NCBI GenBank assembly: GCA_021651055.1
Contig: JAJHOH010000001.1
Span: 930,001-994,000, forward strand
Direction of reading: 5' to 3'
Source: Candidatus Manganitrophus morganii
Lineage (GTDB): Bacteria; Nitrospirota; Nitrospiria; SBBL01; Manganitrophaceae
Length of the DNA: 64,000 nt
The position numbers and the translations under genes are program-made. Of the stretch, positions 35,651 through 53,368 are shown in pieces. Within the stretch, counting starts at the first letter, position 1. Every line of letters begins with the position of its first letter. Below the pieces are notes generated by a model, which did not search any database, was not told where the DNA came from, and saw only the letters and a program-made list of their open reading frames with translations.

Positions 35651-35669
35651 TTCGAATCGGTTGCCGTAG

Positions 35670-35859: not shown

Positions 35860-35902
35860 CCCCTTTCGGGGCGTTGTGCCCCGCGCGATGATCCGGCAAA
35901 AT
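35860..35902 (+). promoter_or_regulatory. GGGG-TTG-class promoter for the zinc-ribbon gene
   Basis: CCCCTTTCGGGGCGTTGTGCC, with TTGTGC (35874-35879), 17-base spacer and CAAAAT (35897-35902). An extra ACCCCTTCGGGCG copy precedes it. The start would be about 100 bases before the ATG at 36008. Confidence 0.6.
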
Positions 35903-36007
35903 GGCATCATGTTCAACAGAAGTGAAAGACGCTGAACTGCTTCAAGCCATTTAAGACAAGCGCAAAAAACCGACAACCAGAGAAACATCGCCAAAGAGGA
36001 GAATCCG

Positions 36008-36193
36008 ATGAGATGTTTGAGATGCCGGGGGATGATGGTGGAAGAGCGGGTTTTCACAATAGAAGGGGGGATCGCCATGGCGCGGTGCGTCTGTTGCGGC
36101 GACCTGATCGATCCGGTCGTGATCCGGAATCGATCGGTCCCCTGCTCCGCTGAGGCACGAGGAGGGAGGCACTACGGGCTGGGGATTGCTTAA
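36008..36193 (+). CDS. Small zinc-ribbon-like protein
   Basis: A 61-residue protein with GAGGAG about seven bases before the ATG. Two CxxC knuckles, CLRC at residues 3-6 and CVCC near 27-30, suggest a zinc ribbon. The intervening segment is VFTIEGGIAMAR. The C-terminal 25 residues are polar. Such small ribbon proteins often bind nucleic acid or metal. Function not assigned. A stress-type promoter lies upstream and a LuxR-type regulator gene is convergent. Confidence 0.65.
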   Translation: MRCLRCRGMMVEERVFTIEGGIAMARCVCCGDLIDPVVIRNRSVPCSAEARGGRHYGLGIA

Positions 36194-36205
36194 TCGGCCG
36201 GCAGG

Positions 36206-36883
36206 TTATACGCCGAGCATCGGTCCAGACAAGATTTTGGAGACGAGGGTGGCCCGGTTGTGAACGTCCATCTTTTGATAGATCTTCTTGAGATGGCCTT
36301 TGACGGTCAGCTCGCTGATGAAGAGCCGGTCGGCGATCTCCTTGTTGGCGTCCCCCCGGCAGAGGCACTTGACGACGTCCACCTCCCGGTTGGAGAGATC
36401 GAACGTCTCTTGAACCTTCTTCATGTCGATGACCCGCTCGCTCCCCTCGGCCTGGACCACCCAGCGGCTCTGAAGCTGAAGGGCCCGCTTCTCGATTGCG
36501 AGACGGACCGCTTCGATCAGCTGCGGCAGATCGTCCTTTGACTTCTCAAGGTAATCGAAAGCCCCTTCCCGCCTCAAAGACTGGATGGCGGTCTTCATGG
36601 AAGCGTGGCTGGTCAGCATGATCGCAATGATCTCGGGATCGATCTGTTTGGCCTCGTGCAAAACATCGATGCCGTTGATTTTTGGAAGATGGATATCGAG
36701 GATCAGAACGCCCGGGTGGGCAAACCGTTCGTGGAGAAAATCGACCGCCTCCTGACCGTCCCGCGCGATGTGGAGCGGATTCGAGATGCCCCCCTTCTTG
36801 AGGGAGCGTTGGATCACTTCGATGTCGGAAGGGCTGTCCTCCACCAGAAAGATCGGAATCGACTCTTTGTTGACGGTACTCAT
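36206..36883 (-). CDS. Response regulator, NarL/LuxR type
   Basis: Receiver (about 8-125, acceptor aspartate in VLILDIHLPKING) and C-terminal LuxR-type HTH (about 155-215; LSNREVDVVKCLCRGDANKE, then TVKGHLKKIYQKM). Canonical two-domain transcription factor. The ATG has a weak ribosome site but a perfect promoter upstream (36923-36951). It is divergent from a PAS histidine kinase (37057) and may be its partner, since the kinase is followed by a receiver-only protein that could be a competing phosphate sink. Confidence 0.92.
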   Translation of the reverse strand: MSTVNKESIPIFLVEDSPSDIEVIQRSLKKGGISNPLHIARDGQEAVDFLHERFAHPGVLILDIHLPKINGIDVLHEAKQIDPEIIAIMLTSHASMKTAIQSLRREGAFDYLEKSKDDLPQLIEAVRLAIEKRALQLQSRWVVQAEGSERVIDMKKVQETFDLSNREVDVVKCLCRGDANKEIADRLFISELTVKGHLKKIYQKMDVHNRATLVSKILSGPMLGV

Positions 36884-36922
36884 ATGGGATATAATCCATC
36901 GAGAGGTGAACGATCATTCGAG

Positions 36923-36951
36923 ATTATATTCTCGTTGTAAGCCGCTGTCAA
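36923..36951 (-). promoter_or_regulatory. Consensus sigma-70 promoter for the LuxR-type regulator
   Basis: TTGACA (complement of 36946-36951), 17-base spacer and TATAAT (complement of 36923-36928): a perfect match at both boxes and in spacing. Start near 36916, about 33 bases before the ATG at 36883. Confidence 0.85.
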
Positions 36952-36976
36952 CGACGCGGGAGGGAGGAAAAGGTCA

Positions 36977-37005
36977 TTGCCTTCCCCCCTTCCCTCTGCT
37001 ATCAT
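36977..37005 (+). promoter_or_regulatory. Promoter for the PAS histidine kinase
   Basis: TTGCCT (36977-36982), 17-base spacer, TATCAT (37000-37005). The -35 box sits in AAAGGTCATTGCCTT, which resembles the sequence around the -35 of the Rieske operon (42113-42127). Confidence 0.5.
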
Positions 37006-37056
37006 CCGGGCCGATTCGAGCGGCGCGGCAAACATCAAAAATTAAGCCGGATTCGT

Positions 37057-38226
37057 ATGAACGACAGAGAAAAGACGAAAGAGCAACTTCTCGCGGAGAT
37101 CGACCTCCTCCGTCGCCGACTGGCGCAGGCGGAGGAAACCGAGAGCACCCATCTTAAGGCGGGGTTGAAGTTTCAGCGCCTTTTGGAGGTGGCTCCCGAT
37201 GGAATCATCATCGTCGATCGGGGCGGATTGATCACGCTGGTGAACGCCCAGGCGGAAAAGCTCTTCGGCTATCTCCGGGAAGAGCTGCTCGGCCAGCCGA
37301 TTGAGATCCTGGTGCCGGAGCGCTTTCGGGGGGCGCATGTCGGCCACCGGGAAAACTATCACACCCAGCCGCGCACCCGGCCGATGGGGGCCGGCCTCGA
37401 CCTGGCGGGCCGCCGAAAAGACGGGAGCGAGTTCCCGGTGGAGATCAGCCTCAGCCCGATTGAAACAGAGGAGGGCGCCCGGGTCATCAGCATCGTCCGC
37501 GACATCACCGACAAGAAGGGGGTGGAACAGAAGCTGCGCGAGAAAATCCGCGAGATGGACGACTTCGTTCATGTCGTCTCGCACGATCTAAAGGAGCCGC
37601 TGCGGGGAATCGAGGCGTTCGCCGGATTCCTCGCCGAAGATTACGCTCATCTATTAGACGACGAGGGACGCCGCTATGTTCAATTTCTCAAATCGTCCGC
37701 CGTTCGGATGAAAGATTTAATCCACGACCTGCTGACGCTCGCCTCGATTTCCCGAAAAGCCCCCGCGCAGCAGAAGATCGATCTCAACCGGATCCTCGGG
37801 AATGTCGAGCAGGATCTCTCTTATACAATTGAGCAGAAGAAGGTCCGGATCTCCCGGAAACATCCCCTCCCGACGGTCGTTTGCGATCCGACCCGGATGG
37901 GAGAGCTCTTCAAGAATCTTCTCTCCAATGCCGTTAAATTCAATATGTCGTCCGTTCCGGAAATAGAAATCGACCTCAAAGAGGAGAAGGGGTTTTATCT
38001 CTTTTCGGTCAAGGACAACGGCATCGGGATCGATCCCCGCTATCAGGCTCAGATCTTTGGACTCTTCGAGCGGCTCCATCCCCAGGAGGAGTTCGAGGGG
38101 ACCGGCGCGGGGCTCGCCATCTGCAAGAAGATCATCGAGGACTGCGGCGGGAAAATTTGGGTCGAGTCTGCGCTGGGGAAAGGAAGCACCTTCTTCTTTA
38201 CCCTTCCCCAAAAGGACTCACGATAA
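37057..38226 (+). CDS. Soluble PAS histidine kinase
   Basis: Cytoplasmic kinase with no membrane helix: coiled start (1-35), PAS (about 40-155, ending in ISIVRDITDKKG), HisKA with the phospho-acceptor in VVSHDLKEPLRGIEAF (phytochrome-type DHp), and HATPase (VKDNGIGIDP, GTGAGLAICKKI). The PAS cofactor is unknown. It is 30 bases upstream of a receiver-only gene that is likely co-transcribed, giving a two-gene relay like those of cyanobacterial phytochrome/Rcp pairs. Confidence 0.9.
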   Translation: MNDREKTKEQLLAEIDLLRRRLAQAEETESTHLKAGLKFQRLLEVAPDGIIIVDRGGLITLVNAQAEKLFGYLREELLGQPIEILVPERFRGAHVGHRENYHTQPRTRPMGAGLDLAGRRKDGSEFPVEISLSPIETEEGARVISIVRDITDKKGVEQKLREKIREMDDFVHVVSHDLKEPLRGIEAFAGFLAEDYAHLLDDEGRRYVQFLKSSAVRMKDLIHDLLTLASISRKAPAQQKIDLNRILGNVEQDLSYTIEQKKVRISRKHPLPTVVCDPTRMGELFKNLLSNAVKFNMSSVPEIEIDLKEEKGFYLFSVKDNGIGIDPRYQAQIFGLFERLHPQEEFEGTGAGLAICKKIIEDCGGKIWVESALGKGSTFFFTLPQKDSR

Positions 38227-38256
38227 ACATTCATTTTAAGTAGGAGCTGGAAGGCC

Positions 38257-38712
38257 ATGTCGAGTCAACCTCTTCAACCGGTGAAGATCCTCCTGGTGGA
38301 GGACAATCTGCAGGATATCGAGATCGCCCGGCGCGCCTTCGCCAAAGGAAGGGTGAAGAACGAATTGATCGTGGTGAGGGACGGTCAAGAGGCGCTTGAT
38401 TATCTCTACCGCCAGGGCAAATACAAGGACCCCGCCTCCTCTCCCCGCCCCGGCATGATCCTGCTCGACCTGAATCTGCCGAAGGTCGGCGGGATGGAGG
38501 TGCTCCAGCAGATCAAGAAAGACGAGGCGCTGAAGTCGATTCCGGTGATCGTTTTGACTGCCTCCCCCCGAGAGGAGGATGTGGTCCGAACCTATAACCT
38601 CGGCGTCAACACCTACATCCAAAAACCGGTCGAATTCGACAACTTCATGCGGGTGGTCCACGCGGTTCAGGAGTACTGGATTGTCATCGCCTCGCTTCCC
38701 CCCTCCGCTTAG
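38257..38712 (+). CDS. Single-domain response regulator, Rcp1 type
   Basis: A 151-residue receiver with KILLVEDNLQDIEIARRAF, phospho-acceptor in GMILLDLNLPKVGGMEVL, TAS motif in VIVLTASPREED, and lysine in TYIQKPVEFD. The short insert (PASSPRPGM) after the second helix is typical of Rcp-type receivers. It has no output domain, so it acts by protein contact or phosphate relay. It is downstream of the PAS histidine kinase and probably its partner. Confidence 0.92.
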   Translation: MSSQPLQPVKILLVEDNLQDIEIARRAFAKGRVKNELIVVRDGQEALDYLYRQGKYKDPASSPRPGMILLDLNLPKVGGMEVLQQIKKDEALKSIPVIVLTASPREEDVVRTYNLGVNTYIQKPVEFDNFMRVVHAVQEYWIVIASLPPSA

Positions 38713-38721
38713 CTGTCAAAA

Positions 38722-38767
38722 CCCCCCTTTCGTGGGATTGCCGTCGATCCGTCCTGTAGCACACAAT
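38722..38767 (+). promoter_or_regulatory. GGGG-TTG-class promoter for a UspA gene
   Basis: CCCCCCTTTCGTGGGATTGCCG, with TTGCCG (38738-38743), an 18-base spacer and CACAAT (38762-38767). The G block is interrupted (GTGGG) and so this is the weakest of the seven. Start near 38774. Confidence 0.5.
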
Positions 38768-38796
38768 GAGCTGACAATAACGAAAGGAGGGTCGCC

Positions 38797-39249
38797 ATGA
38801 AGATCAATACCATTCTCGTCCCCACCGATTTTTCAGAGCTCTCCAACGAGGCGGTCGACTATGCCTTTTCGATGGCCAAACGGATCGGCGCAAAGATGGT
38901 TTTTATGCACACCCTCGAATGGCCTGATCATCCCGATGAGATGACCCCGATGGCCGATGAGGGATACGCCTTCATGAAAGACCGCGGCAACGCCATGCTC
39001 CATGATCTTGTGGAGCAGGCCGCAAAGGAAGGGCTGGAGGCAAGCGCGCTGTTGGCCGACGGAGTCCCCTTCGTAGAAATCATTCAGGTGGCGCGGAAGC
39101 ACAATACCGATCTGATCATCATGGGGACACATGGACGGACCGGGTTCTCGCACGTCATGATGGGAAGCCAGGCGGAGAAGGTGGTCCGGCAGGCCCCCTG
39201 CCCCGTCCTGACGATCAAGAGCCCGCAGCATGTCTTCACGCCGGCCTAA
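38797..39249 (+). CDS. Universal stress protein (UspA family)
   Basis: A 150-residue UspA protein: ILVPTDFSELSNEAVDYAF at the start and the nucleotide loop MGTHGRTGFSHVMMGSQAEK near residue 110, ending CPVLTIKSP. GAAAGGAGGG lies eight bases before the ATG. It differs from the other two UspA proteins by a TLEWPDHPDEM loop. A GGGG-TTG-class promoter lies 30 bases upstream. A UbiB-like kinase gene follows by ten bases. Confidence 0.92.
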   Translation: MKINTILVPTDFSELSNEAVDYAFSMAKRIGAKMVFMHTLEWPDHPDEMTPMADEGYAFMKDRGNAMLHDLVEQAAKEGLEASALLADGVPFVEIIQVARKHNTDLIIMGTHGRTGFSHVMMGSQAEKVVRQAPCPVLTIKSPQHVFTPA

Positions 39250-39259
39250 CGGTCGCATA

Positions 39260-40969
39260 ATGAATGACCGATCGCTCCAATTCAAATGGACCGACTTGAA
39301 TCGCCTGCGGACGATCGTCGGGGTCGTCTTCGAATCGGGGGGGGACCTCCTCATTCAGCGATTGCGGCTGAAATACTTCATCCCCCTTTGGTTTCGGCTC
39401 CGGGCCGTTTTCACCCGGCGTCCCCCGGAAGCCCCCCTGATGAAAATCGACGGGAGCGGTCCGATTCTCTCCCCCGCCCTCCTCCGATCGGTCCTGGAGC
39501 GATTGGGACCGACCTTCGTCAAGTTGGGACAGGTCTTGAGCATGCGGGCCGATCTCGTCGGCGAGCCCCTCTCCCGGGAGCTCTCCAAGCTGCAAAGCGA
39601 CGTCGCGCCCTTTCCATACGAAGCGGTCCGCCGGATCGTCACGGAAGAATTCGGCACCCCCCCGGAGGCGCTCTTCAAATCTTTCGAGGAAAAACCGGCG
39701 GCGGCCGGATCGCTTGCCCAGGTCCATCGCGCGCTTTTAATCGACGGGACCGAGGTCGCCGTCAAAGTCCAGCGGCCGGAGATCGAGAAAATCATCCGGC
39801 AGGACATTCATCTTCTCTATTATTTGTCCAGTCTGGCGGAGCGCTTCATCCCGGAGTGGAACATCTACCGGCCGACCCGGATCGTGAAGGAGTTCGCCGA
39901 CTGGACCCTGCGGGAGCTCGACTTCGAGGCCGAGGGACATCACGCCGAACGCTTCCGGGCGATCTTCAAGGAGAATCCGAACATCCACATTCCCCGGGTC
40001 TACTGGGAGTGGACGACGAAGCGGGTCCTCACGATGACCTTCTCGCATGGGGTCAAGGCCGACGACCTGGCGGGAATGGAGGCATTGGGAATCGATCGAA
40101 AACGGCTCGCCTCGATCGGGGTCGATGCTTTCTTCGAGCAGTTTCTGACCGCCGGGTTTTTCCATGCCGATCCGCACCCCGGCAATTTCTTCGCCACGCC
40201 GGAGGGGTCGCTCTGCCTGCACGATTTCGGGATGGTCGGTTATTTGGATGAGGAGGCGCGGCGCACCCTGCTTCATGCCCTCCTCGGCTTCGTCAAAAAA
40301 GACATGGAGGGGTTCACCAAACACTTTCTCCGCCTGGCGTTGGTCGACGAACGAAGCGACGTCAGCGGCTTCAAGAAAGATCTTTCCAACATCTTGAGCG
40401 AATTCTTCTACTCGCCCCATCCGCCGAGCGCCGCTCGCGCCTTCTTCCGGGCGATCAATCAGGGAACGCGAAACGGCATCCGATTCCCCTCCGACCTCGC
40501 CCTCTTCGGCAAGGCGATCCTGACCACCGAGGGGATGGGGCTGCTCCTTTATCCCGAATTCGACTTCAACCGGGAGCTGGAGCCGTTCGTCCAAAAAGCG
40601 TGGCAGGCGTATTGGAGCCCGCGGCGTCTGCTGCGGAGCGTCGAAACCGATCTCTTCGACCGGCTGGAACTCCTCAAAGGATTGCCCGATCGCGTTGAAA
40701 AAGTGTTGATCAAAGTGGAGCGGGGCGAGATCGGCGTGAAGCTCGACGCCGGCGACCTCCATGGGATCAAGCAGGAGTTCGATCGGCAAAACGACCTTCG
40801 GATCTTGGGCCTGGTCCTGACGGCCATCTCGGTCGTCACCCTCGGTCTTTTTTATCTGGAAGGGAAACGGGTCCTCTTCGGCCTCTCCCTCAGCCACCTC
40901 AGTGCGGCGCTTTGGGGAGTGCTCTTCGTCTGGTTTCTCTCCCGACTCCGGCAGGCCCCTCTGCCATAA
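39260..40969 (+). CDS. ABC1/UbiB-family atypical kinase-like protein
   Basis: Membrane-associated protein of the UbiB/ADCK group, involved in quinone biosynthesis or lipid transport. The signature KxGQ segment is LGPTFVKLGQVLSMRADL (about residue 85-102); the ATP-site alanine-rich loop AAGSLAQVHRA and lysine in VAVKVQRP follow, then the HADPHPGNF catalytic segment and LHDFGM. Two hydrophobic helices lie at the C-terminus (about 515-565). The ATG at 39260 lacks an obvious ribosome site, so it may be coupled to the UspA gene ten bases upstream. Length (569) fits. Confidence 0.9.
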   Translation: MNDRSLQFKWTDLNRLRTIVGVVFESGGDLLIQRLRLKYFIPLWFRLRAVFTRRPPEAPLMKIDGSGPILSPALLRSVLERLGPTFVKLGQVLSMRADLVGEPLSRELSKLQSDVAPFPYEAVRRIVTEEFGTPPEALFKSFEEKPAAAGSLAQVHRALLIDGTEVAVKVQRPEIEKIIRQDIHLLYYLSSLAERFIPEWNIYRPTRIVKEFADWTLRELDFEAEGHHAERFRAIFKENPNIHIPRVYWEWTTKRVLTMTFSHGVKADDLAGMEALGIDRKRLASIGVDAFFEQFLTAGFFHADPHPGNFFATPEGSLCLHDFGMVGYLDEEARRTLLHALLGFVKKDMEGFTKHFLRLALVDERSDVSGFKKDLSNILSEFFYSPHPPSAARAFFRAINQGTRNGIRFPSDLALFGKAILTTEGMGLLLYPEFDFNRELEPFVQKAWQAYWSPRRLLRSVETDLFDRLELLKGLPDRVEKVLIKVERGEIGVKLDAGDLHGIKQEFDRQNDLRILGLVLTAISVVTLGLFYLEGKRVLFGLSLSHLSAALWGVLFVWFLSRLRQAPLP

Positions 40970-41000
40970 AAAATAGAGAACAGCTTCCTGAAGAAACGCT

Positions 41001-41041
41001 CCTTTTGGGGGGTTGTCGCTGTTTCTCGGTTCGGTCAGAAT
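41001..41041 (+). promoter_or_regulatory. GGGG-TTG-class promoter for the third UspA gene
   Basis: CTCCTTTTGGGGGGTTGTCG, with TTGTCG (41013-41018), a 17-base spacer and CAGAAT (41036-41041). It closely matches 54881-54926. The start near 41048 is about 73 bases before the ATG at 41121, which excludes in-frame starts further upstream. Confidence 0.6.
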
Positions 41042-41120
41042 AGAGTTACGGAAGCCAATAATGGATACCACCACAGGCGATACAAGCGGGAACGATCCTT
41101 TTGCTTCTGGAGAGACCGAC

Positions 41121-41594
41121 ATGAAGAAGATAAAGAAAATTCTTATGAGCACCGACTTCTCGGAATGCGCGAAAGCGGCATTCGATGAAGCGGTTCAACT
41201 CACCCGCCAGCTGAACGCGGCGCTTCTTTTAACCCATGTCATAGAGCCGATCGACATCGCCAGCTCCCACATTGAACCGTTCGACTTTCTTGAACTGAGG
41301 CTGCTACAGAAGCTCGATCGAATGGCTCACCCATTGAGAGAAGAAGGGCTCCTGGTCGAAACCCATCTCTTCAAGGGTGATCCCGCCGCCGAAATCATTA
41401 AGGCGGCGGGAGATCTCCAATGCCACCTGATCGTCATGGGGACGCACGGGCGAACGGGGGTGCAGCGCCTCTTGATGGGAAGCGTGACGGAGCGGGTCCT
41501 CCGCGCCTCCCCCGTCCCAATCGTAGCGGTGCGGCGGCAGGCGGCGGCCGAGAATAAAAAAACGCTTGCAAAAGAAGAAACCGCGGCCGCCTGA
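41121..41594 (+). CDS. Universal stress protein (UspA family)
   Basis: A 157-residue UspA protein: ILMSTDFSECAKAAFDEAV at the start, THVIEPIDIA, and MGTHGRTGVQRLLMGSVTER. The ATG at 41121 follows GGAGAG by about seven bases. It shares THLFKGDPAAEI with the UspA at 35129 and is probably its duplicate. A CBS-pair protein follows 50 bases later, repeating the UspA/CBS neighbourhood at 34.6-35.6 kb. Low-oxygen or energy stress is a usual inducer of such pairs; here that is inference. Confidence 0.92.
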   Translation: MKKIKKILMSTDFSECAKAAFDEAVQLTRQLNAALLLTHVIEPIDIASSHIEPFDFLELRLLQKLDRMAHPLREEGLLVETHLFKGDPAAEIIKAAGDLQCHLIVMGTHGRTGVQRLLMGSVTERVLRASPVPIVAVRRQAAAENKKTLAKEETAAA

Positions 41595-41644
41595 CGGCGC
41601 CCCGGAAAACGATAGCCTCTGTAAATATGGAAAGGAGGAGCCCG

Positions 41645-42058
41645 ATGATTCCTCTGGTGGAACGATTTACGACAATGAAGATCAACGCGATCGATGCCGA
41701 TGAAAACATTTCGGAGGCGGCGAAAGGGATGGCGGCAGACGCGATCGGAAGCTTATTGGTGACCCGGGAAGGGGCCTATGTCGGGATCATCACCGAGACC
41801 GATATCGTCCGAAAGGTGATCGCAAAACAGCTTGACCCCGCCGGCATTCTGGTCTGGCAGGTGATGCAGTTCCCCCTCATCACCATCGAGGCCGACAGAA
41901 CGGTGATGGAGGCGAATGACCTAATGGAGTCGAAGGGAATCCGCCACCTTGCCGTGACCCGCGGAGGAGAGGTGGTCGGCGTCTTTTCGGTCCGGGATCT
42001 CCTCCGGCCGCTCTACATGGAAGAGATGGCCGGATTTTTCCTCGGCCCGCCGGAATAG
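41645..42058 (+). CDS. CBS-domain pair protein
   Basis: A 137-residue Bateman module: INAIDADENISEAAKGM in repeat one, then GIITETDIVRKV and, in repeat two, GIRHLAVTRGGEVVGVFSVR. The ATG at 41645 follows AGGAGG by six bases. It is in line with the UspA gene and probably in its transcript. It likely binds AMP/ATP-type ligands and regulates another protein; no effector domain is present. Confidence 0.88.
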   Translation: MIPLVERFTTMKINAIDADENISEAAKGMAADAIGSLLVTREGAYVGIITETDIVRKVIAKQLDPAGILVWQVMQFPLITIEADRTVMEANDLMESKGIRHLAVTRGGEVVGVFSVRDLLRPLYMEEMAGFFLGPPE

Positions 42059-42181: not shown

Positions 42182-42685
42182 ATGTCGGAGATCAACCGAA
42201 GAGGTTTTTTCGGAAAGATCATTGCAGCCATTTCAGGACTTATCGGTCTGGGGTTGGGAATTCCTCTTCTCGGATATGCGGTTCTCCCGACCCTCCGTAA
42301 GCGGGAAGAGCCCTGGTCGGAGGTCGGACCGCTCGATCTGATCGAGCTTAACCGGCCGAAAGAACTCGAGGTGGTTCGCTCCTCCTCCAGCGGCTGGATG
42401 AAGAGCAACACCGTCCGGTCGTTCTGGGCTTACAAAAAACCGGACGGCGAGGTGGTCGCCTTCTCCCCCATCTGCACCCATCTCGGCTGCGGTTATCGAT
42501 GGTCCGACGCAGATCAGCAATTTCTCTGTCCCTGTCACAACTCGGTTTTTGACCTTGAAGGAAAGGTCCTCGCCGGTCCCGCCCCCCGCCCGCTCGACAC
42601 GCTTCCGACGAAAATCGAAGGGGATCGGCTCTTTGTTCTTTATCAGGAATTCAAAGCCGGTCTTCCCAAGAAAGAGGCGATCTGA
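42182..42685 (+). CDS. Rieske [2Fe-2S] protein of a bc-type complex
   Basis: Membrane-anchored iron-sulfur subunit of a quinol:cytochrome c oxidoreductase, with its soluble domain on the periplasmic side. The N-terminus carries a twin-arginine-like motif (NRRGFF) and a helix at 12-35. The cluster ligands are C98/H100 (CTHLGC) and C116/H119 (CPCHNSVFD); C103 and C118 can form the usual disulfide. GGAGG precedes the ATG. It is directly followed, with an ATGA overlap, by cytochrome b-c. Assignment is firm. Confidence 0.95.
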   Translation: MSEINRRGFFGKIIAAISGLIGLGLGIPLLGYAVLPTLRKREEPWSEVGPLDLIELNRPKELEVVRSSSSGWMKSNTVRSFWAYKKPDGEVVAFSPICTHLGCGYRWSDADQQFLCPCHNSVFDLEGKVLAGPAPRPLDTLPTKIEGDRLFVLYQEFKAGLPKKEAI

Positions 42686-43998
42686 TGAATCGCCTCTTCT
42701 CCTGGCTCTCCGACCGTCTCAAATTGCCGCCGATCCTTCATCATCTCCTCGATGAGGCGATTCCGGGGGGCGCCAGCTGGATTTATATCTTCGGAAGCGT
42801 CACCCTTTTTCTCTTCCTGTTACAAGCGACGACCGGAACCTTTCTCGCCCTCTACTACGCCCCCACTCCTGACCATGCGTATGAGAGCGTGAAGTTCATC
42901 CAGGAGGAGGTCCCATTCGGCGCCTTTGTCCGGGGACTGCACCACTGGGGGGCGAGTGCCATGATGGTGGCGATCGGCCTTCACATGCTCCAAGTTTTTC
43001 TCTATGGTGCCTATAAACCGCCGCGGGAGCCGATGTGGATCGTCGGTGTTTTTTTATTAATCCTCACACTGACCTTCGGCTTCACCGGCTATCTTCTCCC
43101 CTGGGATCAGAAAGCCTACTGGGCGACTCAGGTCGGGATCAATCTGGTCGGGAGCGTCCCCTGGATCGGCGGAACCCTCGCGCGGATTCTCCGCGGCGGG
43201 GCGGAGCTGGGCGCCTTGACCCTCAGCCGGTTCTTCGCCATCCATACCCTCTTTCTTCCTTGGCTGATTATGTTCTTGATCGCCGGACATCTTTTCATCC
43301 TTCGAAGGGTCGGTCCGGCCGGCCCCTGGGACAAAGCGCGGGCGAAGCGGATCTCGGAGCCGTTTTATCCAAAGCAGGTCTTCATGGATGCGGTGGCGAT
43401 GGGAGCGGTTTTTCTGGCGCTGGTCGTCCTGGTCAACCTCTTTCCGGCGCATTTGGGGGATCCCGCCGATCCGACCGACACCACCTTCCGCCCGGTTCCG
43501 GAGTGGTATTATCTCTTCTACTATCAGCTTCTGAAATATTCGGAAGGACCGTGGGAGCCGGTCGTCACCTTTGTCCTCCCGGTCCTCTTCTTCGCAATTC
43601 TCTTTGCCATCCCCTTTCTCGGCCGAAAGCGGGAGCGCTCGCCGGCGCGGCGTCCGATCGCGATCGGCGCCGGGGCGTTCTTTTTGGTTTTCGTCTTCAC
43701 CCTTCTCGGCCTGGCGATGAAGGAGACCGCCGCGTTGAAGAAAACCGATCCGGCGGTCGAGCGGGGGCGGGCGATTTACGCCAAGCTCGCCTGCGCCGGC
43801 TGCCACCGCATCCACGGCCAGGGGGCGCAGGTGGGGCCCGATCTCTCCTTCGTCGGCGATGCGCGCGACCGCGATTGGTTGATCGCCCACTTCAAAGACC
43901 CGCAATCATTGGTCCCCGGATCAATCATGCCGCCGACCCGTCTCCCCGAACCGGAACTGGAAGATTTAACGCGGTATATGCTCAGCCTGAAAAAGTGA
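42685..43998 (+). CDS. Cytochrome b fused to a c-type cytochrome domain
   Basis: Core subunit of the bc complex. Residues 1-335 form a full-length cytochrome b with about eight helices, the paired haem histidines (HHWGASAMM and HMLQVF in helix II; HTLFLPW and GHLFIL in helix IV), GYLLPWDQKAYWATQ, and the Qo-site PVPEWYYLFYYQ as PEWY. A helix at 320-345 leads to a mono-haem cytochrome c domain with CAGCH at 370-374 and a distal methionine in SIMPPTRLP. Cytochrome b with a fused C-terminal haem c is known in some Gram-positives and other phyla. The start overlaps the Rieske stop. Confidence 0.94.
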   Translation: MNRLFSWLSDRLKLPPILHHLLDEAIPGGASWIYIFGSVTLFLFLLQATTGTFLALYYAPTPDHAYESVKFIQEEVPFGAFVRGLHHWGASAMMVAIGLHMLQVFLYGAYKPPREPMWIVGVFLLILTLTFGFTGYLLPWDQKAYWATQVGINLVGSVPWIGGTLARILRGGAELGALTLSRFFAIHTLFLPWLIMFLIAGHLFILRRVGPAGPWDKARAKRISEPFYPKQVFMDAVAMGAVFLALVVLVNLFPAHLGDPADPTDTTFRPVPEWYYLFYYQLLKYSEGPWEPVVTFVLPVLFFAILFAIPFLGRKRERSPARRPIAIGAGAFFLVFVFTLLGLAMKETAALKKTDPAVERGRAIYAKLACAGCHRIHGQGAQVGPDLSFVGDARDRDWLIAHFKDPQSLVPGSIMPPTRLPEPELEDLTRYMLSLKK

Positions 43999-44058
43999 TA
44001 AGGAAACCCAAGAGACGTTCGGGAAAATAATCAATTCTAATTTGAGTGGAGGAGTCGT

Positions 44059-44385
44059 ATGCGAAACCGATCTCTTTTGATCTTCACGTTATTGGCGCTC
44101 TTTTTAACCTTCGCGGAGCGAGCCTCGGCCGCCGACGCGGCGAAAATAAAACAGGGGGAGAAGCTCTTTGGCGAGCGCCAATGCACCGCCTGCCATGCGA
44201 TTCAGGGGAAGGGGGGTCCGGTCGGCCCCGATCTCACCAAGGTCGGAAGCCGCCGGGACGAGGCGTGGCTCAAGAAGTTTCTTCCCGATCCGAAGTCGGT
44301 CGCCCCGGAGACGATGATGCCTCCCTTCCGCGGAACGAAGGAAGAGCTGGATGCATTGGTGGCTTATCTCCTCTCGTTAAAGTAA
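44059..44385 (+). CDS. Small mono-haem cytochrome c
   Basis: A 108-residue periplasmic cytochrome c. The signal peptide ends near ASAADA; the haem site is CTACH at 42-46, and the distal methionine is in ETMMPPFRG. It is like the C-terminal domain of the preceding protein (both have GPDL after CH and a MPP-type ligand), and may have arisen by duplication. It follows the cytochrome b-c gene by about 60 bases, probably in the same transcript, and should carry electrons from the bc complex to a terminal oxidase or other acceptor. Confidence 0.9.
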   Translation: MRNRSLLIFTLLALFLTFAERASAADAAKIKQGEKLFGERQCTACHAIQGKGGPVGPDLTKVGSRRDEAWLKKFLPDPKSVAPETMMPPFRGTKEELDALVAYLLSLK

Positions 44386-45151: not shown

Positions 45152-46525
45152 GTGAACGAGTCCGACTTCAGGAACGATCCTCACCCCGTTTTAGATGGAA
45201 TCGCCGACCCGATTATTGTGATCGATCGGGACTTCAACCTGACCTATGCCAATAAGACGGTCCGGGGAAGAACCGCCGGAGCAAGCCCGACCGGACAAAA
45301 GTGTTACGAAGTCCTCCATGGAAAAAACCACCCTTGCGATCCCTGCCCCTGCCTTCAGACATTCGAGACCAATAAACCTTACCGTGTGATCCGCAAGACC
45401 GAATCGACGGAAGGGGGAAGCCCCGTCCTCAAAGAATTTCGATCCTACCCTATTTTGGATCAGGAGGGGAAGGTCATCCGCACCATTGAAGTGATTCAAG
45501 AGCTCTCCCCTGCCGAAGCGCCCCTCTCCGAAGAGAACACCCCTGCACGAAAACGGAAAGCCCCCTCCGCCGGGGAACGCTCCTTCTGCGGCATGATCGG
45601 GGGGAGCAAAAAAATCAAAGCGCTCTTTCAGATGATCCGGCTGATCGCCCCCAGCAATGCGACGATCCTGATCTACGGCGAGAGCGGCACCGGCAAAGAG
45701 CTCGTCGCCAAGGCAATCCACCAGAGCAGCCTCCGGCGCGATCGGCCCTTCATCGCCATCGACTGCGGCGCGCTTCCCGAAACGTTGCTGGAGAGCGAGC
45801 TCTTCGGCCATGTCAAAGGGGCCTTCACCGGCGCCATCCAGAACAAAAAAGGGCTCTTCGAAGAAGCCGAAGGGGGAACCCTCTTCCTCGACGAGATCGC
45901 CGACACCAGCTTGGCGTTTCAGTCGAAGCTCCTTCGGGTGTTGCAAGAAGGGGAGGCGCGGCCGGTGGGAGGCAATCGGAGCATCAAGGTGAATGTGCGG
46001 GTGGTGGCCGCCACCAACAAGCCGCTGAAGGAGGCGATCGCCCGAAAGAACTTCCGGGAAGATCTCTACTACCGGCTGGCGGTGATGCCGATTGTGATTC
46101 CCCCCCTTCGCGAGCGGCCGGATGATATCCCGTTGCTCGCCGAACACTTCATTGAAAAATATGCCCTCCCGAACGGAAGAGGCCCGATGTATCTGTCGGG
46201 AGAGGCGTTGAGCCTGCTGATGAAATTTCACTGGCATGGGAACGTCCGGGAACTGGAGAACGTCATCGAGCGGGGGGTGCTCGTCTCCCCCGGCCTCGAA
46301 ATCCTTCCCGAATCGTTCCTGATCGACGAAGAGATCCCGATCCCTTCCTCTCCGTCGATCCCCCTCTCCATCTCACGTGATGAAGCGGTGCTCAAGGTGG
46401 AAAAAGATCAGATCATCGACGCGATCAAAAGGCACAAGGGGAATAAGTCGCTCGCCGCCCGCTCCCTCGGCATCGCCCGCGCCAGCCTCTACAACAAGAT
46501 CAAACGGTATCAACTCGATCGCTGA
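45152..46525 (+). CDS. PAS-domain sigma-54-dependent activator
   Basis: One-component activator with no receiver. The PAS domain (1-125) contains a cysteine group C51, C62, C65 and C67 (KCYEVLHGKNHPCDPCPC), which could bind metal, a cluster or act as a redox switch. AAA+ spans about 145-385 (Walker A GESGTGKE, contact loop GAFTGA, Walker B LFLDEIAD), and Fis-type HTH follows (LAARSLGIARASLYNKIKRY). The start is GTG with a weak ribosome site. It lies between two genes with matching sigma-54 promoters and upstream elements (44645 and 47455) and is the obvious regulator of both. Confidence 0.92.
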   Translation: MNESDFRNDPHPVLDGIADPIIVIDRDFNLTYANKTVRGRTAGASPTGQKCYEVLHGKNHPCDPCPCLQTFETNKPYRVIRKTESTEGGSPVLKEFRSYPILDQEGKVIRTIEVIQELSPAEAPLSEENTPARKRKAPSAGERSFCGMIGGSKKIKALFQMIRLIAPSNATILIYGESGTGKELVAKAIHQSSLRRDRPFIAIDCGALPETLLESELFGHVKGAFTGAIQNKKGLFEEAEGGTLFLDEIADTSLAFQSKLLRVLQEGEARPVGGNRSIKVNVRVVAATNKPLKEAIARKNFREDLYYRLAVMPIVIPPLRERPDDIPLLAEHFIEKYALPNGRGPMYLSGEALSLLMKFHWHGNVRELENVIERGVLVSPGLEILPESFLIDEEIPIPSSPSIPLSISRDEAVLKVEKDQIIDAIKRHKGNKSLAARSLGIARASLYNKIKRYQLDR

Positions 46526-46683: not shown

Positions 46684-47157
46684 ATGGAAAGGACGGAAAA
46701 ACGTATGTTCTGGATGGTTTTAATTTGGATTCACATTTCGGCGGCGATGTTTTGGGTCGGGGGGATGCTCTTTTTTTCCATCGTCCTCATCCCCTCCCTC
46801 CGAAAGATACCTCCCGTGGATCGAGCGGGGCTGATGAGTGAAATCGGGAGACGTTTTCGTCTCACCGGCTGGACCGCGCTGGGGATTCTCCTGGTCACCG
46901 GCCTGCTTCGTGTTTATCATCTTGGACTTCCCCTACGAATGGAAGGCTGGTTCGGGATGAAGTTGACCCTAATCGCATTGATGATCTCGTTGACCTTTCT
47001 TCATGATATCGTCCTCGGCCCTCGATCGATCCGAATCAGCCGATCCACGGCGGCGCCTCACCCGCTCCAACGGACCGTCCGGTGGATGGCTCGATTGAAC
47101 CTGCTGGTCGGCCTCTTCATCGTCTTGGCGGCGGTCTATCTCGCCAGAGGATATTAG
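46684..47157 (+). CDS. CopD-like integral membrane protein
   Basis: A 157-residue protein of four predicted helices. The first contains IHISAAMFWVGGMLFF, whose His and WVGG are typical of CopD/PcoD-type or related (DUF2269/DUF4149-like) proteins; a His in FLHDIVLGPRS and one in YHLGLPLRMEGW follow. These families bind copper or haem in or near the membrane. No ribosome site is clear; the second ATG (codon 8) is an alternative start. It lies between the sigma-54 activator and the copper-oxidase gene, so a role in copper supply is plausible, but unproven. Confidence 0.75.
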   Translation: MERTEKRMFWMVLIWIHISAAMFWVGGMLFFSIVLIPSLRKIPPVDRAGLMSEIGRRFRLTGWTALGILLVTGLLRVYHLGLPLRMEGWFGMKLTLIALMISLTFLHDIVLGPRSIRISRSTAAPHPLQRTVRWMARLNLLVGLFIVLAAVYLARGY

Positions 47158-47238: not shown

Positions 47239-47324
47239 CGCCGCCGGACCGCCCTCCTCCTCCCCTTCTCCGAAAAAAATAAAATTCCGCTCCATTCGGG
47301 CCTTTTTCAAACGCTTCCGTGAGA

Positions 47325-47338
47325 GGCATGTCTTTTGC
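47325..47338 (+). promoter_or_regulatory. Sigma-54 promoter of the multicopper oxidase gene
   Basis: GAGGCATGTCTTTTGCT: GGCAT at -24 and TTTTGCT at -12, GG at 47325 and GC at 47337, spacing 12. The start near 47349 gives a leader of about 105 bases. Confidence 0.75.
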
Positions 47339-47454
47339 TCTCGGAGATACACTGTTCCGAACCGCAATGAAGAACAGCCGACGGGGTGTATTCCACAGAG
47401 CAATCCACATCCTGCTGAAACGTTGATCCAAAAAGAAAACATACAGGGGGAGAA

Positions 47455-50400
47455 ATGATGAACATTGTACGAAGGGATCTTTGGAGGGCGGCGTCAATAG
47501 CCCTCTTGTTGATTCTATCGGGAAAAGAAGGGGCCGTCGCCGGGGGAGACCATACCCACCCCGAGGCGCAGCCGGTCGCTTCTTCCGGATGGGAAGAAAA
47601 GCTGAAAGAACAGATTGCGCGGGAAGACCAAGCGGAAGGCCGCGCCGGCCATTCCGACCGGGTCGACGCCGCGATGAACAAATTGATGGATGAAATCTCC
47701 AAGGGAATGAAACAACATTCGGACCATACGGGGGGCTCGGGACCCTTCGAGGGAATGAGCATGATGCAGCAGATGGATCGCAGCTATTTCCTCGGGCCAG
47801 CGAGCACCGGGGAGAGCGTGACCGCGGGCGGCCGCTGCCCGAAGAACGCGCCGGTCAAGGAATATGACATCTCCGCCATCAACGTCGAGATCACGCTGAA
47901 CCAGTGGCTCGACTTTCATCCCGGCTACATGTACGTCTTGACCGAAAACATCGACAAAGTCCGGGCGGAAGAGAAAAAGAATGCGGAGGCCCGTGAAAAA
48001 GAGGGGTATGACCCGGGAGCGGTGACGACCGGTCTTCAAACCGACATGATCCAGCCGCTGAACATCCGGGGCAACCAGGGGGACTGCGTCGTAATCACCC
48101 TTCGGAACAAGCTCGACGGCGAGGATGTCGGGATCCACATCCACGGCTCCAGCATGATCGTCCAGGCGTCGGGTCAGGCCGCCACGGCCTCCAATCCAGA
48201 GTCGAACGTCACCCCCGGCAAGAGCCAGACGTTCGAATGGTACATCCGGCCGAACGAGCAGGAAGGGGTCCACAATTTCCACAGCCACGTCGGACGCGAG
48301 CAGGCGAGCCTCGGAATGATCGGATCTTTCATCGTCGAGCCGATGGGGGCGCGTTATCTCGATGCCATCACCGGCAAAGAGACGAAAAGCGGATGGCAGG
48401 TGATGATCGAACTTCCCAATCAGCCCGATTTCCGGGAATTCGTGATCTTCTACCATGAGATCGGCGACGAATCGTTCCGGCCGTTGAATAAAAACGGCGA
48501 GATGATCCCGCAGCGCGATCCCAACACCGACGCCTACCGCCCCTCCGCCCGCGCCATCAGCTACCGGAGCGAGCCGTTCGGCGTCAACAACCTCGCCCTT
48601 CAGGAAAAGTACTTCCACTTCGAGGACGAGTCCCTCGCCTACAGTTCCTACACCTTTGCCGACGTCCCGACGACGATTCCTCGGTCGTATATGGGAGACC
48701 CGATCAAATTCCGCCTGGTTCACGGCGGCGGCGAAGTGTTCCACTCCCACCATCCCCACGGCGGCACCATCCGCTGGCTTCGCCAGCCGAAGGCCGACGG
48801 AAAGGCCGACTTTCTCATGACGGCGGCGGGGAACGGACCGGTGAAATTTCCCGAGATCCGGACCACCTCCGATCGGGTGGACGTTGAGGTGATCGGACCG
48901 TCCGAGGTCCTCGACCTTCAGACCGAGTGCGGCGGCGGGCTCTGCCAGCAGTTGGCGGGGGATTTCCTCTTCCACTGCCACGTGGCGCATCACTACGTCG
49001 CCGGGATGTGGGGCTACTGGCGGAACTACAACACCCTGCAGACCGGGAACTACCCCTTCGGCAGCACCGACATCATGCCGCCGCTGCAAGAACTCCCGGA
49101 TCGGAAGGGCCGAATCAAGCCGGCCGTCACCTCCGACAAGCTCGTCGGCAAGACGATGGACTGGTATGACAAGAAATGGAGCCTCACCTCCAACAAATCG
49201 GATTGGAGCAAGCCGATCCCAGAGATCTCGATCAAGGACTGGGTGAAGATGATGCTTCCGCCGGCCGGTCAGCCGGGTCACACCTCGGACGAGAAGGGAC
49301 AGATCGCCGCCTATGACGGCACCGTCTGGGATTGGGCTTGGGAAGGGAACAAAGCGATGGGCGAGCCGGAGGCGACCGGCCAGTTCGATTTTCCGAAATA
49401 TAAATCGCCGATGCCGGGCAAACGGCCGCCGATTCTCTTCGAGCCGGTGACCGGGAAGCTGGCCTGGCCGCACTTCAAGCCGCACTTCGGAAAGCGGGTG
49501 CCCTTTGCCCGCCACCACGGTCCGGCCCCCTGGCTGGAGCCGATTCACATGGACAAAAACACCGGGTCGGTCGGCGCCGAACCGGGTGGCGTCGGAGCGC
49601 CGGGCGAAGAGACCAACCAGCCGGCCCGACCCGGAGAGCAGGGACGATGGAGCCTCTGCCCGGAAAGCGCGGGACGGAAACAATACACGATCCACTTCAT
49701 TGAAACGCCGATCCAGTTGTCCACCGGCCTCGGGAAAATCAAGCCGGTCGTAGACAAAAGCGGATTGATCTACGTCCTCCATGAAGACGAGGCGGAGGTC
49801 CGGGCCAACCCGGCCAGCGACAAGACGATCCCGCTGGTCTACCGGTACAACGTCTACGACTGCGTCGACGTCATCTTAAAGAGCGAATGGGAGGATAACG
49901 ACGTCACCAACTTCCAGATGTCGAAAATCAACATCCATCCCCACTTCATTCAGTTCGACAACCAGGCCTCCGACGGCGTGATCAGCGGCTTCTCTTACGA
50001 GCAGTCGGTCCGGCCTTTCACGCAGATGTCGAAGAAGAAACACAAGGGGCTCCCGACGCCGATGAACTCCGTCCTCACCGAGGACATCAAGGCGGGATCG
50101 AGCCGCATCAAGATCAAGATGGCCGAGGGGGCGACCCCCTTCCATGTCGGGACCGATCTGATGATCGGGATGGACGAGGTGAAAACCTCCGAAGTCCGCT
50201 GGATCAAGGCGATCGACGGCGATACGATCACCTTTAACGAGCCGCTGAAACACCCCCACAAGAAGGGGGAGATCGCCTCGGTGGAGTATATCCGCTACCG
50301 CTACTGGGGTGACGCCGACGTCGGAACGGTCTTCTGGCACGACCACGCCTTCGGGGCCACCACCTGGCCGCACGGCGGGGTCGGGGCAATGATCGTGGAG

Positions 50401-52371
50401 CCGTACGGCTCCACCTACCATGATCCGAAAACTGGAAAGGAAATCCGGAGCGGAACGGTCGCCGATGTCCATACGACGGAGCCGATCGGGTACGGGGTCA
50501 ACGGCAGCTTCAGAGAGTTGATCGTCATGCCGCACGACACCGTGCCGCACACCGCCCAGGTGGTCACTGAGGGAAATCCCCCCGGCCAGACCCTCCAGGT
50601 GGCGATCGACGCGGGGCAAACCCTGTCGTTCCAAATGCCTTACGATTTGGATCTGACCGCCGCCAAGATGCTCAACGGCGGCACCCACACCACCGGAGGC
50701 GGATTCAACTTCCGGGCGGAATCGGTGGCGCGGCGCCTCAAAAACAATCCCGATCCGACTTTGATCTTCTCGAGCAAGGCCCACCAGGATCCGAGCACCC
50801 CGATGCTTCGGGCGTATCTGGGAGACACCCTCGTCTTCCGACTTCTCCATGTCATGATGAATGAGACCCACGTTTGGCACCTCGGCGGCCACGCGTTCAG
50901 AACGGAGCGGTATGCGGAGCATTCCGATCTGAAGAATGCTTGGCATGTCGGGATCGCCGAGCGGTACGATCTCGTCACCAAGGCGGGGGGAGCGCAGCAG
51001 ATCGCGGGGGACTACCTCCACTACAACGGCCGGCCTTCTCACCTCTCGGAAGGGAGTTGGGGGATCGTCCGGGTGTTGGACAAGGAGACCAAAGATCTGC
51101 AGAAACTCCCCGGCACCGGGGAAATTCCCCAATCGGCCAAGTCGGTCTGTCCGGCCAATGCCCCGGTGAAAACCTTCAACGTCATTGCAGCCGATCGGGC
51201 GCTCAAATTCAACAACAAAGCCCCCGACTTCATCGAGGTCGACTTCGACCGAAAGCTGCAGGTGGCGAATCCTTCGGGTAAGATCTTCATGCTCGAAGGG
51301 GAGAAAACCAAAGTCGCCGACGGCGGTTTCCAGCCGATGCCGTTGACCCTCCATGTCAACGTCGGCGACTGCATCAAGGTGAACCTAAAAAATGAAATGA
51401 AGGGGAGCAAGGCGTCTTTCAGCGCCGACATGCTGGCCTTCGACCCGAAAGATTCTCACGGGGTGAACGTCGGGAACAACCCGGGCGATCAGATGGTCGC
51501 CCCCGGCAAGAGCCGGACCTATACCTTCTACGCCCATCCGCAATACGGGGAGACGGCAGCAATGGTGTGGGATTGGGGCAACTTCATTAACAACGTCCGA
51601 GACGGCCTCTTCGGGGCGATCATCGTCGGACCGCCCGGATCGAAGTATCGAGATCCGGTCACCGGCGAGGATGTCTCGTTGAAGAACGCCTGGCAGACCG
51701 ACGTGATGATCGATCGATCCCTTCCTCAGAATGTGAATCGGTCGGATTACCGGGATGCCTCGCTCTTCTTCCAGGACGAAGACAACATCATCGGAACCTC
51801 GTTCATGCCGTACATTCAGCAGATCGGAGGGCTCACCGGGGTCAACTACCGGAGCGAGCCGTGGATGTACCGTGAAGAGCAAGGGTGCGAGATCGGTCTG
51901 ATGTTCACCCCCTGTGTTGCAGGGGAATCGGACCCGGCCACGCCGACCATCACGGCGCATGCGGGCGACCCGGTTCGCATCCACGTCTTCGGAGCGTTCA
52001 ACGAGCAAAATCAGGTCTTCAGCATCGAAGGGCATGAGTGGCCCCTCAAGCCGAACATGGCGGGGGCCGATCTGCTCAGCTCCAGCGAGTTCGGATCGTC
52101 TCAGAACATCGAGGTCAACCTGCAAGGGGGGGCCGGCGGTCCATTCAACATTCCAGGGGTCTACCTCTGGCAGAACCACCGGATGCCGTATGCGGCCGCC
52201 GGACAGTGGGGGTACATGAAAGTCCTCCCCGCTGGGGATCGAAAGATCCAACCGCTGAACGGCGGCGCCGGAGTGGGATCTAAAACGGCGGAGCTTCCCG
52301 ATCCGGAAGCTCCCGATACCCTCTCTCAACAGGGGGACGCTCCGGGACCGCTCTCCATGCTGGAGCGGTAA
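47455..52371 (+). CDS. Giant secreted multicopper oxidase (MofA/McoA-like size)
   Basis: A 1638-residue exported protein (signal peptide to about residue 33) of three consecutive two-domain multicopper-oxidase units. Unit 1 (about 125-530) has a complete copper set: HIHG at 228-231, HSH at 276-278, HSHHPHG at 430-436, and HCHVAHHYVAGM from 507. Unit 2 (about 740-1210) keeps H828/H830, H962/H964 and HVWH at 1139-1142, but has HYNGRPSH where HCH is expected, so no type-1 cysteine. Unit 3 (1230-1600) has VWDWGN and LWQNHRMP in place of the motifs and looks structural. Size and layout recall the Mn(II)-oxidation candidates MofA and McoA. Substrate is unproven. Start could be the second ATG (47458), which is better spaced from GGGGGAG. 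Confidence 0.9.
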   Translation: MMNIVRRDLWRAASIALLLILSGKEGAVAGGDHTHPEAQPVASSGWEEKLKEQIAREDQAEGRAGHSDRVDAAMNKLMDEISKGMKQHSDHTGGSGPFEGMSMMQQMDRSYFLGPASTGESVTAGGRCPKNAPVKEYDISAINVEITLNQWLDFHPGYMYVLTENIDKVRAEEKKNAEAREKEGYDPGAVTTGLQTDMIQPLNIRGNQGDCVVITLRNKLDGEDVGIHIHGSSMIVQASGQAATASNPESNVTPGKSQTFEWYIRPNEQEGVHNFHSHVGREQASLGMIGSFIVEPMGARYLDAITGKETKSGWQVMIELPNQPDFREFVIFYHEIGDESFRPLNKNGEMIPQRDPNTDAYRPSARAISYRSEPFGVNNLALQEKYFHFEDESLAYSSYTFADVPTTIPRSYMGDPIKFRLVHGGGEVFHSHHPHGGTIRWLRQPKADGKADFLMTAAGNGPVKFPEIRTTSDRVDVEVIGPSEVLDLQTECGGGLCQQLAGDFLFHCHVAHHYVAGMWGYWRNYNTLQTGNYPFGSTDIMPPLQELPDRKGRIKPAVTSDKLVGKTMDWYDKKWSLTSNKSDWSKPIPEISIKDWVKMMLPPAGQPGHTSDEKGQIAAYDGTVWDWAWEGNKAMGEPEATGQFDFPKYKSPMPGKRPPILFEPVTGKLAWPHFKPHFGKRVPFARHHGPAPWLEPIHMDKNTGSVGAEPGGVGAPGEETNQPARPGEQGRWSLCPESAGRKQYTIHFIETPIQLSTGLGKIKPVVDKSGLIYVLHEDEAEVRANPASDKTIPLVYRYNVYDCVDVILKSEWEDNDVTNFQMSKINIHPHFIQFDNQASDGVISGFSYEQSVRPFTQMSKKKHKGLPTPMNSVLTEDIKAGSSRIKIKMAEGATPFHVGTDLMIGMDEVKTSEVRWIKAIDGDTITFNEPLKHPHKKGEIASVEYIRYRYWGDADVGTVFWHDHAFGATTWPHGGVGAMIVEPYGSTYHDPKTGKEIRSGTVADVHTTEPIGYGVNGSFRELIVMPHDTVPHTAQVVTEGNPPGQTLQVAIDAGQTLSFQMPYDLDLTAAKMLNGGTHTTGGGFNFRAESVARRLKNNPDPTLIFSSKAHQDPSTPMLRAYLGDTLVFRLLHVMMNETHVWHLGGHAFRTERYAEHSDLKNAWHVGIAERYDLVTKAGGAQQIAGDYLHYNGRPSHLSEGSWGIVRVLDKETKDLQKLPGTGEIPQSAKSVCPANAPVKTFNVIAADRALKFNNKAPDFIEVDFDRKLQVANPSGKIFMLEGEKTKVADGGFQPMPLTLHVNVGDCIKVNLKNEMKGSKASFSADMLAFDPKDSHGVNVGNNPGDQMVAPGKSRTYTFYAHPQYGETAAMVWDWGNFINNVRDGLFGAIIVGPPGSKYRDPVTGEDVSLKNAWQTDVMIDRSLPQNVNRSDYRDASLFFQDEDNIIGTSFMPYIQQIGGLTGVNYRSEPWMYREEQGCEIGLMFTPCVAGESDPATPTITAHAGDPVRIHVFGAFNEQNQVFSIEGHEWPLKPNMAGADLLSSSEFGSSQNIEVNLQGGAGGPFNIPGVYLWQNHRMPYAAAGQWGYMKVLPAGDRKIQPLNGGAGVGSKTAELPDPEAPDTLSQQGDAPGPLSMLER

Positions 52372-52413: not shown

Positions 52414-52441
52414 TTCCTTTCTGATGGAGGAATCTGAACCG

Positions 52442-53368
52442 GTGAGCAAAAAAATTGTGATTGGGCTTCTCTTTTTATTTTTGATCTCCCCCCTCCTCCC
52501 CTCGTATGCCTACGATGAGATGGAGGTGAGCAACGGAGGGACCCTTATCGGAAAAGTCACTTTAAACGGCCCGAAACCGCCCGTCCGCGTTTTCCCGCTG
52601 GTCCTCTATCCCTTCGGTCCTTTTTGCAAAATGATCTCCGACGGCGAGGGAAATGTCATCGTCCAGGAGTTCATCGTCGGCGCTGGCGGCGGGATGCAGG
52701 ATGCCGTTGTCGCCGTCGTTGATGTTAAGAAGGGAAAACCTTTCCCCTCGATCCGGCCTCAGTTCGTCGCCGAGAACTGCATGTTTCACCCCCTCGATAT
52801 CGCCCCCGGCGACCATACTTACCTCGACAAGGAGGGGCGGACCCGCCATGAGCATCCGCTGGTTCGGGTGATCCAAAACCACCAGCCGATTTCGGTCGTC
52901 AACCGCGACCCGGTGATCCACAACGGCCAGATCTTCCAGAACGAGCGGGGGAACATCATCCTCAACTTCCCCCTCCCCGTCTCGAACGAGCCGAGGGGCG
53001 GAATGATCCGTCTCGATCCTGGAAAACGGATTGCCCAGATGATCTGCGGAATGCATGAGTTCATGCAGGGTTGGATGTTTTCAGTCGATAACCCTTACTA
53101 CGAAATGACGAAAAAAGACGGGGTCTTCAAAATCGACCGCCTTCCGCCGGGGCGTTATCGGGTCATCGCCTGGCATCCGCATCTGAAGCCGATTGAGAAA
53201 GAGATCACAGTCTCGGCCGATGAAACGGTCGAATTGGACTTCGCGTTCGATGCGGCCACGGTGAGGCGGCCCGAATACGAACGGCAGGAAAAGTTCCGAA
53301 TCGGACCGGAAGCGCTCCCCCACGAACACCTGACCGGCGATAAAGAGAAGCTTTTCATTCAAGAGTAG
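52442..53368 (+). CDS. Exported cupredoxin-like protein with carboxypeptidase-regulatory-type domain
   Basis: The start is GTG at 52442, after GGAGG by 11 bases; an ATG at 52424 overlaps that site. A signal peptide ends near PSYAYD. The central domain (about 35-215) is cupredoxin-like: H160 in DPVIHNGQ, then C202, H205 and M208 or M212 in MICGMHEFMQGWM give a type-1-copper-like ligand set. The C-terminal domain (about 215-270; DGVFKIDRLPPGRYRVIAWHP) is a CarboxypepD_reg-type beta-sandwich. It is immediately downstream of the oxidase and is a candidate electron-transfer partner; that function is inference. Confidence 0.82.
   Translation: MSKKIVIGLLFLFLISPLLPSYAYDEMEVSNGGTLIGKVTLNGPKPPVRVFPLVLYPFGPFCKMISDGEGNVIVQEFIVGAGGGMQDAVVAVVDVKKGKPFPSIRPQFVAENCMFHPLDIAPGDHTYLDKEGRTRHEHPLVRVIQNHQPISVVNRDPVIHNGQIFQNERGNIILNFPLPVSNEPRGGMIRLDPGKRIAQMICGMHEFMQGWMFSVDNPYYEMTKKDGVFKIDRLPPGRYRVIAWHPHLKPIEKEITVSADETVELDFAFDAATVRRPEYERQEKFRIGPEALPHEHLTGDKEKLFIQE

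Follow-up and report, generated by a model that had tools for sequence, protein, structure and literature searches.

A six-domain multicopper oxidase of Candidatus Manganitrophus morganii with a predicted copper centre shared between two of its three units

The window analysed here, a 64,000-nucleotide stretch of Candidatus Manganitrophus morganii (positions 930,001 to 994,000 of contig JAJHOH010000001.1, assembly GCA_021651055.1), carries the gene for a large secreted-type multicopper oxidase (MCO), one of three oxidase copies (A, B and C) in a genome of 4,287,287 bases on one contig. An earlier note, made from the sequence alone, described this protein, our copy A, as three units with one intact and two decayed copper centres, one per unit. 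We arrive at a different layout, in which a single predicted centre lies across the boundary between units 1 and 2. The gene and the parts of its product that bear on this question are as follows.

47455..52371, + strand: six-domain multicopper oxidase, copy A, 1638 aa, a single intact open frame.
47455..47541, + strand: signal-peptide-like N-terminus, residues 1-29, ending AVAG, read by eye from the sequence.
48136..48288, + strand: domain 1, HIH (228-230) and HSH (276-278), half-site of the domain 1/6 position; all four His in 26/71 relatives.
48742..48759, + strand: domain 2, H430 (type 1), H433 and H435 (trinuclear), invariant in 71/71.
48973..49008, + strand: domain 2, H507-C508-H509, H513 and M518 (type 1 and trinuclear), invariant in 71/71.
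49936..49944, + strand: domain 3 (unit 2), HPH 828-830, trinuclear half-site, both His invariant in 71/71.
50338..50346, + strand: domain 3 (unit 2), HDH 962-964, trinuclear half-site, both His invariant in 71/71.
51019..51027, + strand: domain 4, HYN where HCH would stand, no type-1 site by sequence and alignment.
52027..52179, + strand: domain 6, E1525 and H1575, remnants of the domain 1/6 position without Cys; H1575 occurs only alongside all four domain-1 His.

The protein is built of three two-domain units, giving six cupredoxin domains, with the Pfam family Cu-oxidase_3 matched in domain 1 (E 6e-18), and its N-terminus suggests that it is probably secreted, with the periplasm as the probable location. 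Unit 1 carries the motifs HIHG, FHSH, HSHHPHG and HCHVAHHYVAGM, unit 2 carries HPH, HDH, HVWHLGGH and HYN, and unit 3 has almost no ligand motifs left, all as the earlier note had described. The only strong relative of solved structure found by sequence is a distant one, the MnxG chain of Bacillus sp. PL-12 (PDB 9bxa), which phmmer matches to copy A in four stretches across all three units (E = 3e-94) and which bears out the kinship with manganese-oxidase candidates that had been suggested. Neither this match nor the ligand conservation set out below would be expected by chance.

Where the copper ligands lie emerges from aligning 71 full-length, non-redundant relatives: 71/71 agree at twelve ligand positions, eight of them in domain 2 and four in domain 3, and together they make up exactly one type-1 site plus the eight His of one trinuclear site. 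With the invariant half-sites in these two domains, one half of the active site falls to unit 2. The position of the HCH motif lacks Cys in domains 4 and 6, so that the proposed loss of type-1 copper from units 2 and 3 stands. This pattern extends beyond the family: among ten outgroup six-domain oxidases, encoded on plasmids of archaea and bacteria, the full domain-2/3 ligand set is kept in 9/10, with HCH lost in the Pseudonocardia protein, while in the Rubrobacter protein Phe replaces Met at the axial place. (The Pseudonocardia relative, on plasmid pBCI1-2, seemingly has no HCH and is possibly a natural copper-poor member.) In this fold class a trinuclear site draws its ligands from two adjacent domains, and bacterial six-domain oxidases have been described as having their mononuclear site in domain 2 alone, the trinuclear one where domains 2 and 3 meet, and remnants elsewhere (Vasin et al., PMC3600357). 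We therefore consider it likely, from the ligand pattern, that copy A has one complete centre across the boundary between unit 1 and unit 2, fitting this published layout.

In a rival reading unit 1 alone would form a complete centre, with units 2 and 3 as decayed copies serving as scaffold or mineral-binding surface. Unit 1 does contain four HxH-type segments including HCH, but its domain-1 His vary across the family, with all four present in 26/71 relatives, whereas the domain-3 His never vary; moreover, the outgroups retain the ligands of domains 2/3 and not those of domain 1, all four domain-1 His occurring together in 0/10 (the Hymenobacter record has no domain-1 region). On the strength of ligand conservation in the 71 relatives and the ten outgroups we reject this reading, which seems to us very improbable. 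Decay followed by reuse is not supported either: the outgroup oxidases have the loss pattern in common with copy A, and the grouping of units by position across distant relatives makes the triplication and the losses old. The earlier note had held that a complete copper site in unit 2 or 3 would speak against it, and unit 2 comes close, holding half of the active site, but does not amount to a complete site.

Structural models are consistent with the shared centre. A model of domains 3-6 (mean pLDDT 77, pTM 0.82) superposes on MnxG residues 428-1217 with Z 24.8 and 3.0 A over 678 residues, and on ceruloplasmin (1kcw) with Z 20.2 and 4.3 A; a weaker model of domains 1-4 superposes on MnxG 1-803 with Z 18.4 and 4.8 A. 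Since these overlapping halves both match MnxG in register, we infer a six-domain ring in which domains 2/3, 4/5 and 6/1 would be neighbours. Two points weigh against the shared centre: domains 1-4 are poorly modelled (mean pLDDT 63.7) and both models are without placed copper, and all ten outgroup oxidases are plasmid-derived.

In such an enzyme the type-1 copper would be held in domain 2 by H430, C508, H513 and M518, and the trinuclear cluster between domain 2 (H433, H435, H507, H509) and domain 3 (H828, H830, H962, H964). Electrons would enter from a one-electron donor at the type-1 copper, a Cys-His path would carry them to the trinuclear cluster, and the cluster would, by standard MCO chemistry, reduce O2 to water. 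Domains 4-6 and most of domain 1 may then serve chiefly to build the frame of the ring. The enzyme is widespread in nitrite oxidisers and in Mn oxidisers, and its copper centre would thus need to be read again, as one inter-unit site and not as one good and two dead units.

By fold and ligand layout copy A belongs with the bacterial six-domain multicopper oxidases (MnxG-like superfamily). MnxG and an MnxG-like protein from a Priestia plasmid share with copy A the six cupredoxin domains, a single type-1 site, placed in domain 2, and the location of the trinuclear ligands in domains 2/3; they are ~27-28% identical to it, are shorter (1227-1228 aa vs 1638), and differ in that the domain-1 His are kept in copy A. 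The solved MnxG is an H340A mutant whose chain reads HCHLYPA, with Ala at the place of H513 in copy A and of a His in the Priestia relative, and the position of this mutation fits domain 2 as the type-1 site. Copy A scores 98.8 bits against the NCBIfam MnxG equivalog NF041487, far below the cut-off of 3100, which none of the oxidase copies in the Manganitrophus genome passes; this 1894-position model misses the Priestia protein too. Ceruloplasmin has a six-domain ring like that predicted for copy A, but the ceruloplasmin-type ferroxidase arrangement (trinuclear site in domains 1/6, type-1 sites in 2, 4 and 6) differs from that of copy A, with its trinuclear ligands in 2/3 and type-1 ligands only in domain 2. 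MofA of Leptothrix and McoA of Pseudomonas, large MCOs proposed for Mn oxidation, are set beside copy A by description and not by sequence; Leptothrix and Pseudomonas members of 1569-2016 aa fall within the six-domain set of PMC3600357. The oxidases of Nitrospina gracilis and Nitrospira defluvii (PMC3578206) belong to the same family as copy A and share its active-site ligands, copy A being ~59% identical to the N. defluvii protein; the Nitrospira and Nitrospinota oxidases differ from it in having lost the domain-1 and domain-6 His.

Those His raise the question of a second metal site. At the ceruloplasmin-type domain 1/6 position copy A keeps 5/8 His, without type-1 copper, and it is one of the 26/71 relatives with all four domain-1 His (H228, H230, H276, H278). 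H1575 accompanies these four in 25/25 readable relatives and is absent from the other 44 readable rows. By ascorbate-oxidase numbering, H278 and H1575 would share one type-3 copper, and the acidic residue 1525 would take the place of the third ligand. We speculate that H228, H230, H276, H278, H1575 and E1525 could form a subfamily-specific metal site between domains 1 and 6, without type-1 copper and beside the oxidase centre; the strict pairing (25/25 vs 0/44) and the retention of the ligand set in two clades ~54% identical to each other would be in keeping with this. However, on the tree the pattern comes down to no more than two independent changes (sign test p = 0.5), the 22-row clade is conserved anyway, with 45% of all columns and 36/55 His columns invariant, and three of the eight canonical His are gone. 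Because the independent changes are so few and conservation within the clade is generally high, we keep the site as a speculation and think it doubtful; a second centre where domains 1 and 6 meet, with five His and one Asp/Glu as ligands, throughout a Nitrospiria subfamily, including all three copies of the Manganitrophus genome, likewise seems unlikely. If it did exist, it could, for example, bind Mn or relay a second electron.

The history of the protein is an old one. A tree of individual units, drawn from the oxidase family and from its relatives in Streptomyces, Priestia and Indioceanicola, mostly sorts them by position: unit 1 forms one group (91/94), and a single group is not rejected for unit 2 (p-AU 0.46) or for unit 3 (p-AU 0.22). 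On these sequences the triplication, which had been suggested before, is very probably older than the family, and so are most of the ligand losses in domains 4/5 and domain 6. Within the genome, copy B is 83% and copy C 54-57% identical to copy A, and the two are neighbours at 1640558-1651822, C and B being separated by the gene for a 391-aa secreted beta-propeller-like repeat protein; a sigma-54 activator gene lies upstream of C and a blue-copper gene downstream of B. Candidatus Manganitrophus GAC4 has two loci, one (L007) with a 91% identical orthologue of copy A and another (L008) 81% identical. The family occurs in 40/41 relatives, the exception being an 85% complete genome, and, in a sample of 198 genomes of the phylum, in 65/65 Nitrospiria among the matches listed; the unmatched genomes listed are all outside the class, with 109 further unmatched genomes beyond them. 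It is also found in Nitrospinota and in Nitrospira defluvii. One member of the Nitrospinota, Nitrospinaceae OFTM191, has three oxidase genes in a row, with a blue-copper gene after two of them.

The gene stands in a recurrent context, of which the elements in the window are listed here.

45152..46525, + strand: PAS/AAA+ sigma-54 activator (Pfam Sigma54_activat 2e-71, HTH_8).
46684..47157, + strand: small membrane protein, DUF4149/CopD-like by library match.
47324..47339, + strand: sigma-54 type -24/-12 element AGGCATGTCTTTTGCT, 115 bp before the oxidase start codon.
52424..53368, + strand: blue-copper (cupredoxin-like) protein with a carboxypeptidase-regulatory-like C-terminus, the next gene 3' of the oxidase.

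A blue-copper gene lies within 1.5 kb downstream of the oxidase in 39/48 testable loci, and its product has the full type-1 set (H166, C208, H211, M214) in 84/84 homologues, which makes it the most likely candidate for an electron partner or copper donor of the oxidase. Stricter sigma-54 patterns, used in a first scan, were found in 6/58 upstream regions. The core GGCAY-N5-TTGC, relaxed after the element in the window had been seen and therefore partly post hoc, lies within 400 bp upstream of 46/105 family genes, some of them at loci that are near-copies, vs 0.019 expected per 600 bp, a more than twenty-fold excess. A homologue of the activator is encoded upstream of the oxidase in 17/35 loci. 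The pairing and the promoter excess together point to a conserved oxidase/blue-copper pair under sigma-54 control, and the oxidase gene of the window is probably so controlled; in the literature searched we found no report of sigma-54 control of this oxidase in Nitrospira. A blue-copper partner and sigma-54 control would be a new and testable context for an enzyme of nearly all sampled Nitrospiria.

As to what the enzyme does, we somewhat favour a function shared across the class, be it defence against metals or radicals or an outlet for electrons. The genus naturally suggests Mn(II). Two novel MCOs have been reported in every member of Candidatus Manganitrophaceae, for which a role in Mn-lithotrophy would require electrons to pass to a carrier and not to oxygen (PMC9040806); these are very probably the genes discussed here, although we equate them by genus and not by accession, and the portion of that paper's text available to us contains no copper-site analysis of them. 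If copy A were the enzyme by which Manganitrophus oxidises Mn(II), with a carrier or O2 as electron acceptor, this would be in keeping with a genus of Mn-oxidising lithotrophs that has three oxidase copies, with the distant kinship to MnxG, and with the adjacent blue-copper gene and the cytochrome b/c gene group upstream. But the family is present in all 65 listed Nitrospiria and in Nitrospinota, among them nitrite oxidisers, which likewise have it in multiple copies, and PMC9040806 favours Cyc2 and PCC_1. Given this distribution the gene alone is no sign of Mn oxidation and is unusable as a marker for it, and the caution on Mn(II) voiced in the earlier note was apt. Mn(II) is a possible substrate that the distribution does not favour; nor does the distribution support Mn oxidation as the reason for the presence of the gene. 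We consider it unlikely that copy A is the Mn(II) oxidase of Manganitrophus, and just as unlikely that Mn(II) oxidation is the main role of these oxidases in the genus. The literature searched yielded no data on how these genes are expressed in Manganitrophus.

Within the class-shared function that we favour, a defensive role is one candidate, though by itself less likely than not: Lucker et al. described the oxidase in Nitrospina gracilis and N. defluvii and proposed a Mn(III)-based defence against reactive oxygen species (PMC3578206), and by extension Mn(III)-based chemistry or the oxidation of copper or other metals might shield the periplasm from radicals. The class-wide presence of the family and the CopD-like neighbour gene accord with this proposal, but it is published as speculation only and the CopD-like neighbour is not constant among loci. 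In Nitrospina the oxidase gene clusters with genes for nitrite oxidoreductase and a bd-like oxidase (PMC3578206).

Several smaller observations concern the surroundings of the gene. In the PAS domain of the activator at 45152-46525 the stretch GKNHPCDPCPC forms a Cys/His cluster, a possible binding place for a metal or cofactor. At 42182-44385 (+ strand) of the window a Rieske protein, a fused cytochrome b / cytochrome c protein and a small cytochrome c are encoded, making up a bc-type complex upstream of the oxidase; it adjoins the oxidase in GAC4 (L007) too, and is near it in only one other scanned locus (L040). Further upstream, 34562-42058 holds a stress-type run of genes for three universal stress proteins, two CBS-domain proteins, an ABC1-type kinase, a histidine kinase and a receiver protein.
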